A stretch of 64,000 bases of DNA from a virus: IMG/VR virus record IMGVR_UViG_3300028030_000001, positions 19,397 through 83,396 of that record; one strand, written 5' to 3'. The first letter of the stretch is position 1. Each line of letters opens with the position of its first letter. This document shows positions 12,197 to 53,510 of the stretch, piece by piece. The position numbers and the translations under genes were made by a program. Under the pieces are notes generated by a model. It did no database searches. It had not been told where the DNA came from and saw nothing but the letters and a program-made list of their open reading frames with translations.

Positions 12197-12475
12197 CTAC
12201 TTGTTAAGTTCTTCTTTCAACATTTTCGAACATTTGAAGGTAAGCACCTTTTTGTTTGGGTAACTGATATGTCCCCTGTTTGATTTGATTGTGCCTCCCT
12301 TACGTTCTTTAATCAGAAACCGACCAAACCCACGAATGGTGATACCGTCCTCTGCTTCTTGGGCTATGTAATCCACAAAAGCATCAAGTGTTTTGCTTAT
12401 GTGATGTTTGGAAATATGCATATCAAATATTTCCTCAACTCTTTCCTGTACTCCGTCTACTATCTTTCTGTGCAT
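12197..12475 (-). CDS. HU/IHF-family DNA-binding protein
   Basis: 92 aa, the usual HU length. It has the family core GFGRFLIKERKGGT followed by a basic arm (IKSNRGHISYPNKKVLTFKCSKMLK), close to the bacterial pattern in which a beta-arm ends ..P.k.v..F..sk.Lk. The N-terminal helices lack the usual MNK start but show the dimerisation pattern. It bends DNA and could serve replication, packaging or control of the repeat regions. TGCTAC-type spacing of 4 bp to the kinase gene upstream indicates an operon. Confidence 0.9.
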   Translation of the reverse strand: MHRKIVDGVQERVEEIFDMHISKHHISKTLDAFVDYIAQEAEDGITIRGFGRFLIKERKGGTIKSNRGHISYPNKKVLTFKCSKMLKEELNK

Positions 12476-16097: not shown

Positions 16098-17040
16098 TGA
16101 TCCACTCCTCTATTTTGTTTCGTACTGCATCTGCTACTTTACGGTCGTTTAACAGGTGCTTGATTACTTCTATTGGGTCAGGTGTTACCTCTTTGTTGCC
16201 AAATGCCTGCAACAGTTTCTGTACATCAACAGATACTGTTTTCTTTTCTTTTTTCTCTACTTCATCAGGTGTTACTTTGTAGTATTGTTCGGCAGGTAAC
16301 AAGGACTGAAGCACAATACGCCTCCATTCAAGCGTTTCGCTGTTGATAAGCCATACACAAGGTTCATGGTCATACTGGTTTATTGCAGACCTTGCGATAG
16401 AACCGCAGTTGATCAAAAGTTGATCATTTGTCTGAGTAACGAAAGATTGATGATTGTCTCCGCACAAGAACAGTTTTATATGTGGATTAGTCTGCATCAA
16501 ATCTTCAGACAGGAGGTATTTTGATTCGTCTATGGGTAAGGTTGTGTTCGATACAAGAGCGTGAACGAGAGCTTTATTTTTGTGTGTACTTATTATGTCA
16601 GACTCTGTATCGAGTTTGATAACGTAAGAAGAATCAATGGCTAACTTGACAACACCAGCAGCTATAAGCGTACCAAATTGGCTGTCTTTCACGCCTTCCA
16701 TTGTGTAGTTGTAATTCTTTACGTCATGATTGCCCGGTATAGCTTTTATTGGTACGCTCCAATGCCTGAGTTCTGTGATAAGGTCGAACATCTGAGATTC
16801 TGTTATGTTTCCTGTAGGTGCATCAAACCAGTCACCTACAAACACAACCTCTCTTACTTTATGATACTTTGCTATACCTCGTATTTCTTCAAGTGACAGC
16901 ATTGACTGTTCAAACATACTGACCTCGTTCCTGACATACTTAGGAACTCGATTAGTCATATGTAAGTCAGCAAATGCCAGTATATCAAACTCTCCAGTGG
17001 ATTCTGTAGGCTCCACACTTGGGGCAGGTTTCAAGACCAC
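16072..17040 (-). CDS. Mre11/SbcD-like nuclease
   Basis: 322 aa with the metallophosphoesterase motifs ADLH (Asp25, His27), GDWFD (Asp70), GNHD (Asn104-His105-Asp106), a later HALVS, and GDNHQ. With the Rad50-like subunits it would form a double-strand-end nuclease for recombination-dependent replication and repair, as T4 gp47/gp46 or T5 D12/D13 do. It overlaps the Rad50 N-half gene by 56 bp; a later start would be needed to avoid that, but Asp25 is near the N-terminus, leaving little room. Confidence 0.9.
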   Translation of the reverse strand: MVLKPAPSVEPTESTGEFDILAFADLHMTNRVPKYVRNEVSMFEQSMLSLEEIRGIAKYHKVREVVFVGDWFDAPTGNITESQMFDLITELRHWSVPIKAIPGNHDVKNYNYTMEGVKDSQFGTLIAAGVVKLAIDSSYVIKLDTESDIISTHKNKALVHALVSNTTLPIDESKYLLSEDLMQTNPHIKLFLCGDNHQSFVTQTNDQLLINCGSIARSAINQYDHEPCVWLINSETLEWRRIVLQSLLPAEQYYKVTPDEVEKKEKKTVSVDVQKLLQAFGNKEVTPDPIEVIKHLLNDRKVADAVRNKIEEWINANQRTIS

Positions 17041-18343
17041 TCTCTATCTCCTTTCTTTTCCGTTCCAGTTCATGAATGGAGTCTGAAACTGATTGAATTT
17101 CTGACTCACTCTGTAACAGTTTCCTGATATTGTTCGTGAGTTCTTCTATTGTTCCACGTGAAACATAAACTGATTTTGTCAGTGTGCTTAACCTGTCTAT
17201 GTTTGTAACACATTGGTTAAGTTGCTCAAACTGTCGTAACTTCCTGTGATAAAGTTTGGTATCTTCTGCTCTGTTTATTATTTCTGTTATATTACTGATT
17301 ACAGCTATACGGCCTTTAAGCTCTCCAAGTGTGTTAAACGATTGAGCTAACGCACTGTCCATAGAATCTAGCACTGTACCGATACGATCCAGAGACTTGA
17401 GCATTGACACAAGTGTATCATATTTTGAAACTTTGTCAACAACTTTTCTAAGTTCTTGAGGTGTTTCAGACGCTAACAAACTTTCAGGCAGGTCTGTTTC
17501 AAGTCTGTTTCTTGTGTGTTTTGCTTCTTGTACACCATATTCAGTTTCGTTTATCTCTCTGGCAAGTTTAGCCGATGCTACAAGAGCTTTTTTGAGCTTT
17601 TCTATGTTTATACTCGAAACAGTAGCCAGTCTGTGTGCATTGTCTCGTAATGTCCTGGCGTCTGTTATGCTTGACTGTAATTGTTCCGCTCTGTCTTTCT
17701 TACTCTCATACTCCTTAACCATCTCTTCCCAGGTACGATACATATTGTTGGCCGGTTCAACCCAAGAAAGTGATTTAAGTTCTTTACTACGTTTAGACAG
17801 ATTTTTGTCTGTTATTTTTGACTCTTGTTCTATAGCTTTGGTTTCTTTCTCTGCCAGTTCCAGTAGCTCTACCAATTCAGAAAAGTCAAACACATCATTT
17901 AACTTTTCCATTAGTTCAGAAGGCTTGTCATCAAGCATAAAGAACTGGTCTTTTTGTATCTTGATGTTCAGGTCAGTAATATCAAGCAGAGCCTTAACAG
18001 CTTCAGGTACTTTGCCGATACCTACTGCCTTGAGTATTTGTGGTTCGTATTTGTCTTTAGTTATCCTGTACTCATTTAACCTGTTCTTCTGCCATATTCT
18101 GTGTATCCTGCTCCCATCACCAAGCTCTACAATAACTTCCATAACATCTTTAGGATGTTTGTTGTTTATAAGCTTTGCAGGTGTGCCTACGTTTCTAAGA
18201 CACCACAATAAAGCTCGTATGATACTTGACTTACCTACGTCTGATGGGCCTTGCAAAACAGTAAGTACACTATTGAAATCTATAATAAGACGTTCATGTT
18301 TTTCAAAATTTTTGAGCGTGAGTTTTTTAATGACCAGTTTCAT
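16985..18343 (-). CDS. Rad50/SbcC-like ATPase, N-terminal half ending at a zinc hook
   Basis: 452 aa: N-terminal ABC lobe with Walker A QGPSDVGKSS (32-40), the Q-loop region, then ~280 residues of predicted coiled coil, and a CPKC zinc-hook motif at 440-443 only nine residues before the stop. There is no Walker B/signature lobe. It is an SMC arm cut at the hinge; the missing half lies at 14518-15138. A parS-like sequence (17150-17165) lies inside this gene. Confidence 0.88.
   Translation of the reverse strand: MKLVIKKLTLKNFEKHERLIIDFNSVLTVLQGPSDVGKSSIIRALLWCLRNVGTPAKLINNKHPKDVMEVIVELGDGSRIHRIWQKNRLNEYRITKDKYEPQILKAVGIGKVPEAVKALLDITDLNIKIQKDQFFMLDDKPSELMEKLNDVFDFSELVELLELAEKETKAIEQESKITDKNLSKRSKELKSLSWVEPANNMYRTWEEMVKEYESKKDRAEQLQSSITDARTLRDNAHRLATVSSINIEKLKKALVASAKLAREINETEYGVQEAKHTRNRLETDLPESLLASETPQELRKVVDKVSKYDTLVSMLKSLDRIGTVLDSMDSALAQSFNTLGELKGRIAVISNITEIINRAEDTKLYHRKLRQFEQLNQCVTNIDRLSTLTKSVYVSRGTIEELTNNIRKLLQSESEIQSVSDSIHELERKRKEIESGLETCPKCGAYRIHWRV
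17150..17165. promoter_or_regulatory. parS-type site inside the Rad50 N-half gene
   Basis: TGTTCCACGTGAAACA matches the ParB-binding consensus TGTTNCACGTGAAACA at all 15 defined bases. On the coding strand it spells Val-Ser-Arg-Gly-Thr, so it could be chance plus codon choice, but a second, fully canonical copy occurs at 48490-48505. Confidence 0.6.
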
Positions 18344-31750: not shown

Positions 31751-31776
31751 GTTAAAACTCATTACAGAGTTTTAAC
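31751..31776 (-). repeat. Hairpin spanning the TnpB stop codon
   Basis: Perfect 10-bp inverted repeat GTTAAAACTC / GAGTTTTAAC with a 6-nt loop containing the tnpB stop codon. It is in the position where IS200/IS605 elements carry a right-end hairpin and the omega-RNA scaffold; it could also act as terminator. Confidence 0.5.
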
Positions 31777-33294
31777 AAAATTTGTTGAAAAAGAAATAGG
31801 TGATACAAACTCTTCCAACAAACTTTTTAACTTGTACCGATTCAACTTCTTCGGTACAAGTCTTCCAAACGCATCAGCATTATGCAACTTGGACTTCAGA
31901 ACATCTGAAGTCAATCTGTTACATAAATTCATTGATGCATTATGGTCTGCATTATCTTCATATCCACATTGAACACATTTGAAATCTTTTTGTGTCAAGC
32001 GATTCTTTCTGTCTATAAATCCACAATCAGAACATTGTTGAGACGAATATGAAGCATGAGTTACATGAACTCTGATTCCTAACTTTTCTCCAATTCTTAC
32101 AAGAGCATTCTTAACACTACTTAAATGAAGAAGTTTAGAAAGTCTAATCCATTTGATTCCAAACTCTTCACAAAAACCGAATTTATCTTTGAGTAACAAA
32201 TCTTCAACGACTAAATCTGTTACTCCTTTATTGCTTAATGTTCTTAGAATATTGGAGCAAAGATAATCAAAATAACCTTTCAATCTCCTATGGATTTTCT
32301 TCAGTTTCTTTAATTGTCCAGAGTCAAGATTTTGATAACCAATCTCATCAAACTGTTTCAAAAGTTCAATCTGTTTCTTGATAAAATTTCTATCAAAGTC
32401 AAATTCAGTTCCATCTGAACACACAGCAAAATTATGTTTCAGATTTACATCCAGACCAACAGCTCTGTAACACTCTGAAACGAAATCTGGGTCATCAGCA
32501 TTGCAGGTTGTAACTACATGTACTTTACTTTTGTTCTCTCTTCTAAAAATGAGAAACTCTTTTGCAATCAATTTATCTGGGGTATGATAATCAAAATTAG
32601 TCTGTAACGGCAGATAAATCCCGCCATAACCTTTCTTAAGTTTCAGATAAAGCCACCAATTATAAAGGCTATTTGTTTCATCTTGTACTATTTGAGCATA
32701 ATTTTTAGATGCTTTCAAAACTGCTTCATTCTTGTACTCAATCTTTCTAACATTAGATATTGCTCTTTGACGAATTTGTTGAGAAATCTTAACAATTCTA
32801 TCGAAATATGGTTTTGACTCGTAATAATTAAGTGCTTCCTGGAACCAATCATTTTTGGCAGATTCAAATTGTTCTGGATTTAAGTAAACCAAAAATTTGA
32901 TAAATTTGCTTAAATTAGTTGGCTTTTTTATTAACTTAAAATTTTTTACGTCTCCAACCTTATGTTTCTTGGTTTTTCTTTTGTAACGAGAAACTTTAAT
33001 GTCTTTCTGTATCTTTAGATTTACTTTCTTTAATTGAGCTTTAACACTGTTCTCATACAATCTAACTTGAAACTGATATTCTTTCTGAATATTACAAGCT
33101 GGGACTATATCAGAAGTAAACTGAGCATATTGTTGGAGTAGAACTTTCTTGTTCGTTATAAGACAAACAAGATTATCAAAGATATAATCATTGATTTTGT
33201 CTCGTAACCAAGTCAATTCATTAAAAACCAAATCAAGAACATCATTCTTGCTTTGATTCTGTCTGTATGCTGTATATCTTTGTGATTTAATCAT
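31762..33294 (-). CDS. tnpB: TnpB family RNA-guided nuclease (IS605 OrfB)
   Basis: 510 aa. Split RuvC motifs are intact: RuvC-I GLDVN with Asp282, RuvC-II VVEDL with Glu364, RuvC-III NADHNA with Asp450. The zinc finger is CSDC (421-424) and CVQC (440-443). The N-terminal ~270 residues are Lys-rich and long for the family. No TnpA transposase is nearby, so it is a stand-alone copy. It is more AT-rich than its neighbours, consistent with insertion between the primase-helicase and the 113-aa gene. Confidence 0.9.
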   Translation of the reverse strand: MIKSQRYTAYRQNQSKNDVLDLVFNELTWLRDKINDYIFDNLVCLITNKKVLLQQYAQFTSDIVPACNIQKEYQFQVRLYENSVKAQLKKVNLKIQKDIKVSRYKRKTKKHKVGDVKNFKLIKKPTNLSKFIKFLVYLNPEQFESAKNDWFQEALNYYESKPYFDRIVKISQQIRQRAISNVRKIEYKNEAVLKASKNYAQIVQDETNSLYNWWLYLKLKKGYGGIYLPLQTNFDYHTPDKLIAKEFLIFRRENKSKVHVVTTCNADDPDFVSECYRAVGLDVNLKHNFAVCSDGTEFDFDRNFIKKQIELLKQFDEIGYQNLDSGQLKKLKKIHRRLKGYFDYLCSNILRTLSNKGVTDLVVEDLLLKDKFGFCEEFGIKWIRLSKLLHLSSVKNALVRIGEKLGIRVHVTHASYSSQQCSDCGFIDRKNRLTQKDFKCVQCGYEDNADHNASMNLCNRLTSDVLKSKLHNADAFGRLVPKKLNRYKLKSLLEEFVSPISFSTNFVKTL

Positions 33295-44157: not shown

Positions 44158-44186
44158 AACATAGTTTGTTGTTTACGTTCTGTCAA
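44158..44186 (-). promoter_or_regulatory. Promoter with ACGTAAAC element next to palindrome
   Basis: TTGACA, 17-bp spacer GAACGTAAACAACAAAC, TATGTT on the minus strand, with the palindrome AGTGTCACAATTTGTGACACT starting at the first base of the -35 box (44186-44206). A regulator bound there would contact the promoter. Confidence 0.7.
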
Positions 44187-46825: not shown

Positions 46826-46891
46826 GGTCAAGGCAGGAGTCGAACCTGCAAAGGCACAGATTAGTGCCGCTCCGTACCGCACGGCATGACC
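46826..46891 (-). other. tRNA-like cloverleaf, atypical or degenerate
   Basis: On the minus strand a 66-nt sequence folds as GGTCATG / CTTGACC acceptor (one mismatch), CCGT / ACGG D-stem, GGCAC / GTGCC anticodon stem and GCAGG-TTCGACT-CCTGC T-arm, the last being canonical. It lacks the two bases after the acceptor, has a 6-nt anticodon loop (TAATCT) and no clear anticodon, so it is not a normal tRNA gene. It may be a relic, a tRNA mimic or chance. Confidence 0.4.
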
Positions 46892-46978: not shown

Positions 46979-47050
46979 GTATCCAGGCACACCGAGCCAG
47001 GTTTGTCCCTTCTCAGGGGCCTGTACAGGATTCGAACCTGTCCTGGATAC
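46979..47050 (-). other. 72-nt cloverleaf-like sequence with canonical T-arm
   Basis: A 9-bp closing stem GTATCCAGG / CCTGGATAC encloses exactly 72 nt. The minus strand has ACAGG-TTCGAAT-CCTGT, a perfect T-arm, but in the position where a D-arm would be expected; read on the plus strand a CCC-TTCTCAG-GGG hairpin resembles an anticodon arm (CTC). Neither strand gives a standard tRNA. Possible permuted or decayed tRNA. Confidence 0.35.
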
Positions 47051-48468: not shown

Positions 48469-48545
48469 TTAATGCCATTGCCTGATTAGTGTTTCACGTG
48501 AAACAAGCTGTCACAATTATGACACTAATCAGGCAATGGCATTAA
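48469..48545. repeat. Perfect 23-bp inverted repeat enclosing parS
   Basis: Arms 48469-48491 and 48523-48545 are exact reverse complements. The 31-bp loop contains most of parS (48490-48505) and a TGTCACAATTATGACA palindrome (48509-48524). An unusual compound site that could form a cruciform. Confidence 0.8.
48490..48505. promoter_or_regulatory. Canonical parS site
   Basis: TGTTTCACGTGAAACA, identical over all 16 bases to the consensus chromosomal ParB-binding site of bacteria. It lies in the divergent control region. No parA/parB gene is in the window, so either host ParB or a phage ParB outside the window would bind. Confidence 0.85.
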
Positions 48546-49000
48546 GACCATTGCACTTGCCACCTTGACACTATCCACCATTGTCAAGGTGGCAAGGTGC
48601 GCTTTAAGTGATTAGTGCAGGTTAAAGCGTAAACCCTGCAAGCGTCCAGTTATCCTGCTAACAGACAGATGATAATGGTCGCGTCTATCATTACCGCTTG
48701 CATCCAAGCTGGTACGATTGCAACCAGTTATCACAGCATTTAGCTACTTGTTACAGTAGCGTACCGCCTTGCTACGGTTTTACTGCTGCTACCGTCTGAA
48801 AGCTCGTATTAGCTTTCACAGCGCACAGCCCCTGTTAGTCCAGGCGCACTTTACCTGTACTCAGCCGCCGTCTCACTTGACGGATAACCGGATTATCGGG
48901 CGGTTGAATCCGCCCGTTCTATGTCAAAGAGCGTGCAGGGAAAAATTACTGTCACAATTATGACAGTTGAGACAAGCTGTATCAGCCCCCTGCCCGGCTA
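48546..49000. other. Highly structured non-coding segment
   Basis: About 450 bp without genes but with a series of hairpins: a 14-bp perfect stem at 48557-48595 (TTGCCACCTTGACA), GAAAGCT / AGCTTTC at 48798-48817, GGGCGG / CCGCCC at 48898-48915, CTGGT / ACCAG, and a palindrome at 48950-48965. G+C is higher than in the flanking DNA. May be a structured RNA, packaging site or origin component. Confidence 0.5.
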
Positions 49001-49092
49001 ATCAGCCATGTTGCCTACACCCTTGTGGGTGAGTACCCACCTCTCCATCCACAACACAAAGACCAGATTTTCTTTACATAACGTAAACCAAA

Positions 49093-49160
49093 TCCCGTCA
49101 AACAACCGTTCCCGTCAAACAACCGTTCCCGTCAAACAACCGTTCCAGTCAAACAACCGT
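49093..49160. repeat. Four 17-bp iterons
   Basis: TCCCGTCAAACAACCGT repeated head to tail four times (last copy has one change, TCCAGTC). The A+C-rich asymmetric strand continues to 49260. Iterons of this kind occur at plasmid and phage replication origins and at packaging sites next to terminase genes. Confidence 0.8.
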
Positions 49161-49282
49161 CTCAACTCCTACTAAACAATTACCAAACAACCATTCCGAA
49201 TTATGTTAACCAACAAACCAACAATCCAACCTCAAAAACAAACCAACCTTAAAAATACCCACCAACCAAAACAACAAAAACC

Positions 49283-49338
49283 TTGACATAACGTAAACAA
49301 AATAATGTCTTGACAATTTCATAAACACCTTTTACTCT
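49283..49338 (+). promoter_or_regulatory. Tandem right-facing promoter boxes for the late operon
   Basis: Two TTGACA boxes (49283 and 49310). The second has a 17-bp spacer and TACTCT at 49333-49338, which puts the transcript start at about the ATG of the next gene. The first carries the ACGTAAAC element and a poor -10. Probable start of the structural operon. Confidence 0.5.
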
Positions 49339-49345
49339 AAAAAAC

Positions 49346-49873
49346 ATGGAAAAATTAATTGTGTGCTCAGGACAATCTTGCCCTATTTACAAAGTATGCC
49401 CGGCAACTGAAGTGCCTCTGCAGGGGGACGAATGTACGCTTAAAGCAGATTACTTACGGGGCGTGTGGCAGTTGATTACCAGTATGTATCCACGATACGA
49501 GAGCGATCCGGCTCTGAAGTTGAGAGCAAACTATCACTTGATTCCTCTCTATCAGGCGTTATTGGCGGCTTACATTGATTTCTATGCATACAACACAGGC
49601 GTTATCAACAAACCGCCAAAGAAGTCAATGAATATCATAAGGGATTCTATAACACTGATAGAAGCAACACTGACAAAAATGGACTCACTACAGGATGAGT
49701 ATTTGACAATAGATAGTGAAAACAGTAACAATAATGCTCTTGGGTACTACGAACGACTTCTACATAAACCGTCAACACCTGTAGACATGCCATTTGACAC
49801 ACGCAAAAACGGAAAGAAGACTATAATAGTAAAAAAAGTCCCAAGCGAATTACCTGAGAAAACATATAGATAA
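49346..49873 (+). CDS. Putative small terminase subunit (175 aa)
   Basis: Assigned from position directly ahead of portal and large terminase, not from sequence. N-terminal Cys cluster CSGQSCPIYKVCP...GDEC may bind zinc; helical middle; basic C-terminus (RKNGKKTIIVKK). No Shine-Dalgarno and a promoter -10 only 7 bp upstream suggest a leaderless message. Confidence 0.45.
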   Translation: MEKLIVCSGQSCPIYKVCPATEVPLQGDECTLKADYLRGVWQLITSMYPRYESDPALKLRANYHLIPLYQALLAAYIDFYAYNTGVINKPPKKSMNIIRDSITLIEATLTKMDSLQDEYLTIDSENSNNNALGYYERLLHKPSTPVDMPFDTRKNGKKTIIVKKVPSELPEKTYR

Positions 49874-49885
49874 CAGGAACATACC

Positions 49886-51559
49886 ATGACAGAAAACACT
49901 TCACCCAACACACCCTCCAACACACCCTCCAACACTCCCGCTTTCAAATTCGATTTCTCTTCACTTCCGTTCGAGGACAGACAAGCGATCATAGACGAAT
50001 TCGCACCAGAAATAATTGATCAGTTGGCCTTGACCAACAGACCCTGGACAACTCAACCAACAAACACACTCTATGACGAAGATGGGTTCCCTATAAACCC
50101 TAACAAGCACAAAGAAACACAATCATTACAACAGTTACAGGCAAGTTGCTGGGAAAAGGTACAGAACTCTCCACACTTGTCAGGGTACGTGAACGATACA
50201 GCAGGTAAAATCTGTGGTAACGGCTTTTCCATTGACGCATTCGACCAACGAATACAAACGGTAGTGGATGAGATTCTGACCGACCCAAGGAACGACTTCA
50301 TTCTGAATACGCCTATGTACATATCAAGGCATCTCATTGAAGGTGAGTTGTTTCTACCAATGACCATACATCCTGACGCATTCTGTGAGATAGACTTTAT
50401 TGACCCTGCCTACATCAAGGGCGGATCAGAAGATAACACAGGTATAATCTCGCATCCGACAAAACCACAAGTAAGACTGGCCTACATCATAGAAAGACCC
50501 GATAAGAAACCGATCACGATTCCGTCCACGTACCTGTTACACTACCCAAATGCTATCAAACTCATTCCGAAACAGTACAGAGACAGAATACCGACCACTA
50601 CAAATAGAAAATACAAAAAAATCAACAACATAGCCAACTACATGATCGAGTGGAAACGTGGTTATGTTACGAAACGGAATCTGTCTCAGATCAAATCAAC
50701 TCTTGAATGGTTGAATTATTATGAGTTGATGAAGAAGATTGAGGTGGATTACAAGCGGTCTGCTACCAGTTACTTATGGGTAGTGAAGTTTGAGGATAAG
50801 GCGGCTTTTCGTTTGTGGATGAGTATGACGGAAGAGGAGCAGAGGCGGACAGGTTTGATGGCTCAGAAAAGTCCTGGCGGCCAGTTGATTCTGCCTCCTG
50901 GCATGACCATATCATGTGAGGCTCCGAGATTGTCAACGATTACTGACGAGGACAGGGATTTGCTTCATTTTGTGACGGCTGGGCTTGGAGTAGATGCGTC
51001 TACGTTGACAGGGGATTATAACGCTAACACTTATGCGTCTGCAAAGATGGCTAGAACACCTTTATCAGACAGAATAAGTGCATATGCAACATATTTTGAA
51101 CGATTTATCAAGTATGAACTGTTCAGGTCTGTATTTATCGCGAAGAACATTATTAACGGAACAAAAATTGATTATAAAGTAAAACAGGTAGTAAAGTTTC
51201 TTGATAAGGAGCCGAGGTCTAGGAACGTAATAAAGAAAGCATGGGAACTTATTGATGTTTCGTTTCCATTGGATGACGTGGCCGATTTGGAAGCGAAAGC
51301 TAAAGCATTTCTTGGTTCGAAACATGGCTCGCTTCCTGACACATTGGGGATTAGTAAGGAAACTATCGCTAAACGGTTAGGGTTCGGGGCATACGCAAAA
51401 GAAGTTTACAAATATTGGTCTGAGAAAGAGTATATGCCTGATTTGCCTGTGGATGAGTTTCGGGAAAATTTGGTGAACAGTGACGAATCGGCTCAGACAT
51501 CGGTTACTGAATCAAACGATTCTGGTGTGGAAGATGCTGAGGTTCCTGGTGGGGAATAG
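49886..51559 (+). CDS. Portal protein
   Basis: 557 aa. The layout suits a phage portal: a Pro/Thr-rich start (NTPSNTPSNTPAF), a long alpha/beta wing, then helices including TLEWLNYYELMKKIEVDYKRSATSY and the block GLGVDASTLTGDYNANTYASAKMARTPL. The C-terminus is acidic. It forms the dodecameric DNA channel at the capsid vertex. Followed by the large terminase, as in many phages. Confidence 0.8.
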   Translation: MTENTSPNTPSNTPSNTPAFKFDFSSLPFEDRQAIIDEFAPEIIDQLALTNRPWTTQPTNTLYDEDGFPINPNKHKETQSLQQLQASCWEKVQNSPHLSGYVNDTAGKICGNGFSIDAFDQRIQTVVDEILTDPRNDFILNTPMYISRHLIEGELFLPMTIHPDAFCEIDFIDPAYIKGGSEDNTGIISHPTKPQVRLAYIIERPDKKPITIPSTYLLHYPNAIKLIPKQYRDRIPTTTNRKYKKINNIANYMIEWKRGYVTKRNLSQIKSTLEWLNYYELMKKIEVDYKRSATSYLWVVKFEDKAAFRLWMSMTEEEQRRTGLMAQKSPGGQLILPPGMTISCEAPRLSTITDEDRDLLHFVTAGLGVDASTLTGDYNANTYASAKMARTPLSDRISAYATYFERFIKYELFRSVFIAKNIINGTKIDYKVKQVVKFLDKEPRSRNVIKKAWELIDVSFPLDDVADLEAKAKAFLGSKHGSLPDTLGISKETIAKRLGFGAYAKEVYKYWSEKEYMPDLPVDEFRENLVNSDESAQTSVTESNDSGVEDAEVPGGE

Positions 51560-51638: not shown

Positions 51639-53510
51639 ATGGCTTATAATTCGGAACAGTCCTGGCTTAATGAGAAGCTTGAATTTTGGAAATGGGGGAA
51701 TGGAGAGGCAGTTGCAGATTGGGCTGAACATCATGTAAAAGTCAAGGTATTGAATTTTGATACGGGCGGGTTTGAGTTTGTGTATCTGAAAGATATGCCT
51801 ACTCAGAAACATCCCGAAACAGGCCGGTCTTACAGGGATTTGTGGGAGTGGCAGAAGGAGTCGTATCTGTATCCTGCTTTGGAGAGGCATACGAACGGGA
51901 AGTTTCGGTACGATACGCTTGTGAATTGTACTCCTCGTGGGGAGGGGAAAACTGCGGTGAATGTGATTATTATGCTTCACCGCTTTTTCTGTTTTGTGGA
52001 GCAGAAGATTATTTGCGGAGCGAATTCTAAACAGCAGTCGGTGTTTAGTGTGAAAACGATTGCTGAAGATATTATATTGAATTCTGACCCGTTACTGTCT
52101 TTGGTTCCGAGGGACGACATAAAGGACAAGGAGATAAGGCTGAGGGATTCGAGAGGGGAAGTAAGGAATACAATTATTGCTATTTCTGCAAAGCACGGTG
52201 TGTATTCCAATATTACTCTGGCGATATTTTCTGAAATATTTCAGATGGCTCCACCGTTTGAGATGTATTACCAGTTGGATTCGTCCAGACGAAATATTCC
52301 ACATTCATTAGTTCTTGTAGATTCAACTGTATCGGACAAACATCATGTACTTTACCATCTTTACGACATTTCTAAAAAACCTGATTCGAGTGTGTTTTTT
52401 AACTATACTTATAGTAATTCTGGGGATTATCGAGACTATTATCATCCTCTCCAGACTCAGCAACAGCTTGATTCGTTTAGGGAAAAGTTTACTGATTCGG
52501 AGTTCAAGATGTTTTTCCTCAACAAGTGGTCGGGGAAATCTACAGAATTCTTCCCGGAAAAAGCTGTAGAAGCCTTGAATATAATCGGAATCGACTCACA
52601 AGTACCTGCCAATCCTAGAGAGATTATTACTCTGTGCCAGCAAAAAATTGAAGCCGAAACAAATGACGATTCAAACACATATGAACAACTGAAACATCGC
52701 CTGGTTCCGCTTCCGTACAAACTCGAAGCATACGGACATCCTGATTTTATTTCTGGTGAAGCCTTACTTGAACTTCGGGATATGTATGATACCGATTTTG
52801 CTCTTGGTATCGGTATTGATATGGCCGATGCTCTTAAGGATGATTTGACCAAGGGTGCGAGGACTATCGCAGCCTTTATGTTGAAAGGGCTTCCTGGCTC
52901 GCTTCATAATCCAAGTCTTACTTCTGGTTATGACCCTGACGATCCTGAAGATTTGTCTAAACTGGACAGACTTAATTTCGTGTATTTTTGTGCAGGATTG
53001 TTCCACGTGGAAACATCTGATGCGAATGATGTTGTTAGACTGATTGCTCAGTGCAAGGATTCGTTTGCGTTTCCGTTCAATGTACTGGTCGAAAGATGGG
53101 GAAGTTCTGAAATTGTCTCTTATTGTGAGTCTGAGATGATTCCTGTTGAGGTTGTGCATCCGAGTTATGGGTTCCAGCGGGAAGTGTTTAATAGGGTGTA
53201 TCGTCAGGTTATTGCGGGAAAGACAAAGGTTCCTGAGCTTCCGGTTCAGGGAAGAGACGAATCCGTAGATATACTGAGAGAAGAGTTGAGGAATTTTATT
53301 TATGATTCGTCAAAGAAATTCTATGGTTCCCCTACAAAATCGAATCCGAGGGGAATTCAGGATGACTCCGTGTATGCGTGGGCTTATTCACACCACAGCT
53401 TGAGGAAGGCTATTGTTCAGGACTTTGATGTTTGTGCTCAGTACGGAAAAGATGCGTCTATTCCTATGTTTGGGCTTATGATTAAACCTCAAAATGTGGC
53501 AGGTTATTGA
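51639..53510 (+). CDS. terL: Terminase large subunit
   Basis: 623 aa. Walker A-type CTPRGEGKT at 97-105, a Walker B-like LAIFSE, and a nuclease domain beginning GIGIDMADAL with further acidic residues, ending AWAYSHHSLRKAI. It cuts and pumps DNA into the procapsid. No clear ribosome site (TTGATTAAATT before ATG), unusual for this genome. Confidence 0.88.
   Translation: MAYNSEQSWLNEKLEFWKWGNGEAVADWAEHHVKVKVLNFDTGGFEFVYLKDMPTQKHPETGRSYRDLWEWQKESYLYPALERHTNGKFRYDTLVNCTPRGEGKTAVNVIIMLHRFFCFVEQKIICGANSKQQSVFSVKTIAEDIILNSDPLLSLVPRDDIKDKEIRLRDSRGEVRNTIIAISAKHGVYSNITLAIFSEIFQMAPPFEMYYQLDSSRRNIPHSLVLVDSTVSDKHHVLYHLYDISKKPDSSVFFNYTYSNSGDYRDYYHPLQTQQQLDSFREKFTDSEFKMFFLNKWSGKSTEFFPEKAVEALNIIGIDSQVPANPREIITLCQQKIEAETNDDSNTYEQLKHRLVPLPYKLEAYGHPDFISGEALLELRDMYDTDFALGIGIDMADALKDDLTKGARTIAAFMLKGLPGSLHNPSLTSGYDPDDPEDLSKLDRLNFVYFCAGLFHVETSDANDVVRLIAQCKDSFAFPFNVLVERWGSSEIVSYCESEMIPVEVVHPSYGFQREVFNRVYRQVIAGKTKVPELPVQGRDESVDILREELRNFIYDSSKKFYGSPTKSNPRGIQDDSVYAWAYSHHSLRKAIVQDFDVCAQYGKDASIPMFGLMIKPQNVAGY

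Follow-up and report, generated by a model that had tools for sequence, protein, structure and literature searches.

Short direct repeats placed before an operon that begins with packaging genes have been described in phages with Gram-positive hosts, and these are the closest counterparts of the element presented here. In the P23 promoter of phi13, three perfect 18-bp repeats and a partial one extend from -107 to -42 relative to the late start site, and activity is lost altogether when they are deleted (PMC13123087). In TP901-1, the Alt protein binds four imperfect repeats situated from -76 to -32 (PMC13123087). Repeats in a comparable place also belong to packaging signals. In the pac region of SPP1 and SF6, direct repeats are found around the promoters and the start of the small-terminase gene (terS), and they vary between related phages (PMC4737164). 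In the same way, the cosB of lambda contains repeated sites (R3, R2, and R1) upstream of the small-terminase gene, within the head gene cluster; these sites stand apart from one another, with R2 in inverted orientation and an IHF site separating R3 from R2 (PMC4669245). Finally, the iterons of plasmid and phage replication origins are also short direct repeats in tandem.

The array described here was found in a stretch of 64,000 nucleotides (the window) that corresponds to bases 19397-83396 of an 83,396-base virus record. Its four units, starting at 49093, 49110, 49127, and 49144, follow one another head to tail; three of them are identical, and the last one, which begins with TCCAGT, differs by a single mismatch. 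The array obtains a TRF score of 129, as compared to a best score of 64 in 40 first-order Markov random sequences of 64 kb each, generated with the dinucleotide transitions of the window. The four tandem repeats reported in an earlier note on this DNA are thus confirmed as real and far above chance. When up to one mismatch is allowed, the 13-bp core of the array has no other occurrence in the window, and at up to two mismatches a single further match appears (position 16141, minus strand, two mismatches). Two adjacent units were found in none of the viral contigs searched. A unit that is found nowhere else is what would be expected of a site controlling one operon.

Local GC at the array is about 0.39-0.49. 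Past the decayed unit listed in Table 1, a looser 17-bp repeat occupies 49220-49255. The end of the array is separated by 185 bp from the ATG (49346) of a gene for a 175-aa protein; outside the array the gap is of low complexity, and these 185 bases contain only six G. More broadly, from 49060 to 50600 the strands are strongly asymmetric, with a plus strand rich in C and A and poor in G, and near 50.6 kb, within the portal gene, this asymmetry is reversed. The abundance of C and the scarcity of G on the strand raised the idea of a Rho-utilisation site, which was rejected: no convincing rightward promoter lies upstream to transcribe the array. A hairpin function was also rejected, as shuffled versions fold just as well as the array strand (z -0.3).

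Table 1. Repeat array, neighboring control elements, and associated genes (positions in the window).
Feature	Position	Strand	Remark
Operator-like element TTTACATAACGTAAAC	49073..49088	+	Immediately 5′ of the array
17-bp direct-repeat array, 4 units TCCCGTCAAACAACCGT	49093..49160	+	Unit 4 has one mismatch
Decayed array unit AATTACCAAACAACCAT	49178..49194	+	In phase with the array, 10/17
Weak candidate promoter TTACCA-16-TATGTT	49180..49207	+	56% of shuffles score as high
Second operator-like copy TTGACATAACGTAAAC	49283..49298	+	210 bp downstream of the first copy
Sigma-70-like promoter TTGACA-17-TACTCT before terS	49310..49338	+
Putative small terminase (TerS), four-cysteine family, 175 aa	49346..49873	+
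Portal protein	49886..51559	+	Lambda-family portal match
Large terminase (TerL)	51639..53510	+
HU/IHF-like DNA-bending protein, phage-encoded	12197-12475	minus	Pfam Bac_DNA_binding, 5.5e-11

The two ends of the record share an exact direct repeat of 127 bp, a common value for overlaps of this kind at the ends of assemblies, and an ORF of ~1,900 codons, taken to be the tape measure gene, stays open across the join. These two features lead us to regard the record as a circular assembly that is complete at 83,269 bp. Circular assemblies are indeed known for end overlaps as long as the assembler's largest k (PMC10914622). The genome is made of two arms, with rightward genes running from 49346 via the join to 9798 and leftward genes running from 48478 to 9946, a few short ORFs excepted. 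The leftward arm is the early one and the rightward arm the late one; they diverge from a gap of 867 bp, and it is this gap that contains the array. Searches of viral contigs with TerL and the capsid yielded about 100 uncultured relatives. Phage records yielded no relatives in searches with TerL, the capsid, or DNA, and neither did viral contigs in direct searches with the 175-aa protein, the portal, or the primase. The array is an element of an ordinary kind, in a phage lineage that is poorly known. Elsewhere in the leftward arm, the minus strand of 31762-33294 encodes a lone 510-aa TnpB/Cas12f-like protein (Cas12f1-like_TNB, 1.1e-14).

The gene that follows the array encodes a protein already proposed to be a small terminase, and comparison with relatives upholds this. 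In relatives with enough upstream DNA, TerL is preceded by a protein of mostly 150-250 aa. An iterated profile collects 76 such ORFs before TerL, and includes the window protein at 4e-25. Four cysteines are invariant across 22 aligned members (C7, C12, C18, and C30 in the window protein), and the comparison thereby defines a four-cysteine small-terminase family. The window protein itself has no direct match among the TerS models, while 3 of these 22 members match the small-terminase model phrog_361, the best at 2.7e-4. For individual members, the values against the small-terminase PHROG are 2.7e-4 (L027) and 2.8e-3 (L108), and a Terminase_4 match reached only 0.04, below the cut-off. Because it belongs to a family located before TerL, three sampled members of which match a TerS model, the 175-aa protein is assigned as the small terminase on sequence grounds. 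It is shorter at its N-terminus than most relatives in the 22-member alignment, by roughly 20-30 residues. Its structure model displays three long helices and a cysteine-rich start at low confidence; no helix-turn-helix is recognizable among these helices, and a fold search with the model gave no significant match.

The array had also been placed before the small terminase and beside the terminase genes in general. The first part stands, TerS being the next gene, but TerL comes only third, after the portal. In relatives the TerS family gene directly precedes TerL, giving the order TerS-TerL-portal, whereas the portal gene intervenes in the window (TerS-portal-TerL). The same head gene cluster encodes an S49-type protease. 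Among the relatives, the TerL of L002 contains a large insertion directly after its GEGK motif, intein-like in reading, and in L049, L050, L051, and L064 an enlargement of that part brings TerL to about 970 codons.

The gap carries several other candidate control elements. A 16-bp element, TTkACATAACGTAAAC, brackets the array with copies at 49073 and 49283. Its core, AACGTAAAC, has 9 genomic occurrences where about one is expected; at 44170, 39793, and 39058 it is positioned between promoter-like hexamers (-35/-10), 33-49 bp before early genes. This looks like an operator or promoter element common to the early genes and the late control region. Thirteen near-identical palindromes, GTCAYAA-N0-3-TTRTGAC, are all confined to 38.7-49.0 kb; several precede small leftward early genes, and they likely constitute an operator family. 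On the minus strand beside the array, ~390 nt (48600-48990) have a predicted RNA fold of -152.9 kcal/mol (z -6.2 vs. shuffles). This stretch, which has no Rfam match at E up to 1, is a candidate structured RNA or simply rich in palindromes; the Rfam search returned sub-threshold matches only, mostly to microRNA families on palindromes.

As for promoters, the two better ones are 120-150 bp downstream of the array. The sigma-70-like promoter at 49310-49338 is so near the ATG that its transcript would be almost leaderless. Strong sigma-70-like scores just 5′ of terS are found in 34% of 58 upstream regions from relatives, as opposed to 2.7% of shuffles. The candidate at 49180-49207, whose score is no better than chance, would start transcription at about 49214 and place the array at -121 to -54.

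How should such an array be understood? We tentatively favor the view that the array is a set of tandem binding sites for a protein, through which the start of the late operon is controlled, although we give this reading somewhat less than an even chance. A late activator encoded by the phage would bind the four direct repeats and recruit RNA polymerase to a downstream promoter, and the flanking operator copies would add control over timing. The target would be the long rightward operon, which includes terS, portal, TerL, and the head and tail genes. We infer each of these parts, namely the binding of a protein to the repeats, the activating role of that protein, and the promoter served. The location at the head of the rightward arm, with an 867-bp separation from the leftward one, speaks for this reading. 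As in the Ltr (phi13 P23) and Alt (TP901-1) arrays, about four direct repeats of similar unit length stand before an operon that begins with packaging genes (PMC13123087). Contrary to these sites, however, the array is rather far from the better promoters, and the Ltr/Alt type of spacing (repeats within about 110 bp of the late start) fits only the weak candidate start at ~49214. The published cases come from phages with Gram-positive hosts, and no activator gene of a known family is recognized here: among the early proteins scanned, none was recognizable as a member of the Ltr, RinA, ArpU, or Q families. Late control is nonetheless preferred to a role in packaging because the number and length of the units closely match Ltr/Alt, and because elements of early promoters bracket the array. 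If the array controls either the late operon or packaging, it provides a single short, unique, and testable DNA element for a lineage in which no cultured relative is detected through terminase or capsid genes.

The main rival reading, possible but rather unlikely in our estimation, is that of a packaging initiation site of the pac/cosB type, where TerS would bind the repeats and position TerL to cut the concatemer and start head filling. It had been put forward in the earlier note, and both position and precedent fit: the next gene is terS, and repeats occupy a comparable place in SPP1 pac (PMC4737164) and lambda cosB (PMC4669245). The likeness to lambda extends to the portal match, the S49-type protease, and a phage-encoded HU/IHF-like protein, but the units here follow each other strictly head to tail, and nothing like cosN was identified. 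Where SPP1 has a number of distinct repeat boxes, this phage has one tandem array, which is not known to have a cleavage site or protection by TerS. Moreover, repeats did not direct TerS binding in SF6/SPP1 (PMC4737164), and the TerS model lacks a recognizable helix-turn-helix. Contig ends give a mixed message. In relatives L028-L105, the 3.5 kb upstream of TerL has several times as many of them as the downstream side, an excess that physical ends, repeats, or strain variation may explain; they are however scattered over kilobases, with no single point. The record itself is joined into a circle at another place, inside a long ORF, and hence shows no fixed DNA end at the array. Nor is a fixed cos end supported there, since the contigs of near relatives end at differing distances from terS.

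The DNA before terS in relatives bears on packaging as well as on a third reading. The earlier note had raised the question of variation among relatives, and variation is indeed the rule: arrays before terS are common, but their sequences are unrelated, and they stand on either side of the terS promoter, a circumstance that counts against late control. Among gaps of at least 150 bp, 10 of 28 before terS contain an array, vs. 16 of 160 other gaps (p 0.001); stratification by gap length leaves an odds ratio of 2.7 (p 0.047), the kinship of the loci being uncorrected. This comparison lends modest support to a role for repeats before terS, packaging included. It also argues, just as modestly, against the view that the array is a recent tandem duplication, a slippage repeat in an A/C-rich control region of low complexity, having no function of its own. 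We hold this to be unlikely, despite the identity of three of the four units, the G-poor sequence 3′ of the array, and a copy number for a short repeat that differs between the same gaps of the close relatives L010 and L046 (1.9 and 2.9). A bolder version of the packaging reading appears distinctly improbable: the array would be the packaging signal of a large uncultured lineage, whose TerS would dispense with a helix-turn-helix and read DNA via its four-cysteine domain, possibly a metal-binding one; the repeat and its reader would diverge together at such a pace that every phage ends up with an array sequence of its own. The comparison with relatives also reveals a fast turnover of the DNA before terS, which bears on the evolution of late-control or packaging specificity.

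Replication-origin iterons bound by an initiator, another suggestion of the earlier note, are poorly supported and seem very improbable to us. Like them, the array consists of tandem direct repeats, in a divergent region, and it occupies the side of the circle with low cumulative GC skew. The skew minimum is however a broad plateau (~38-50 kb) that also follows gene direction; no initiator gene is found beside the array, nor does an AT-rich unwinding region adjoin it. A better candidate origin is located 4 kb away, at 44.5-45.8 kb beside early genes, with 27-36% GC, many TTTTCTAACAC units, a 111-bp repeat in 2.1 copies, and GTTTAC inverted repeats. Between the two, a strongly folding region contains the tRNA T-arm-like sequences CAGGTTCGACTCCTG and CAGGTTCGAATCCTG on the minus strand (46834-46848 and 47026-47040), where ARAGORN finds no tRNA.

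The parS site noticed near the array, from which a plasmid-like maintenance locus had been imagined, deserves a mention of its own. The site is genuine: the chromosomal consensus TGTTNCACGTGAAACA is matched exactly at 48490-48505, inside a 24-bp inverted repeat (48469-48545), and there is a second match at 17150-17165. The maintenance locus, on the other hand, is unsupported, as no ParB-family gene (ParB_N match) was found in the whole record. Among the relatives, L073 has a parS match at position 33.
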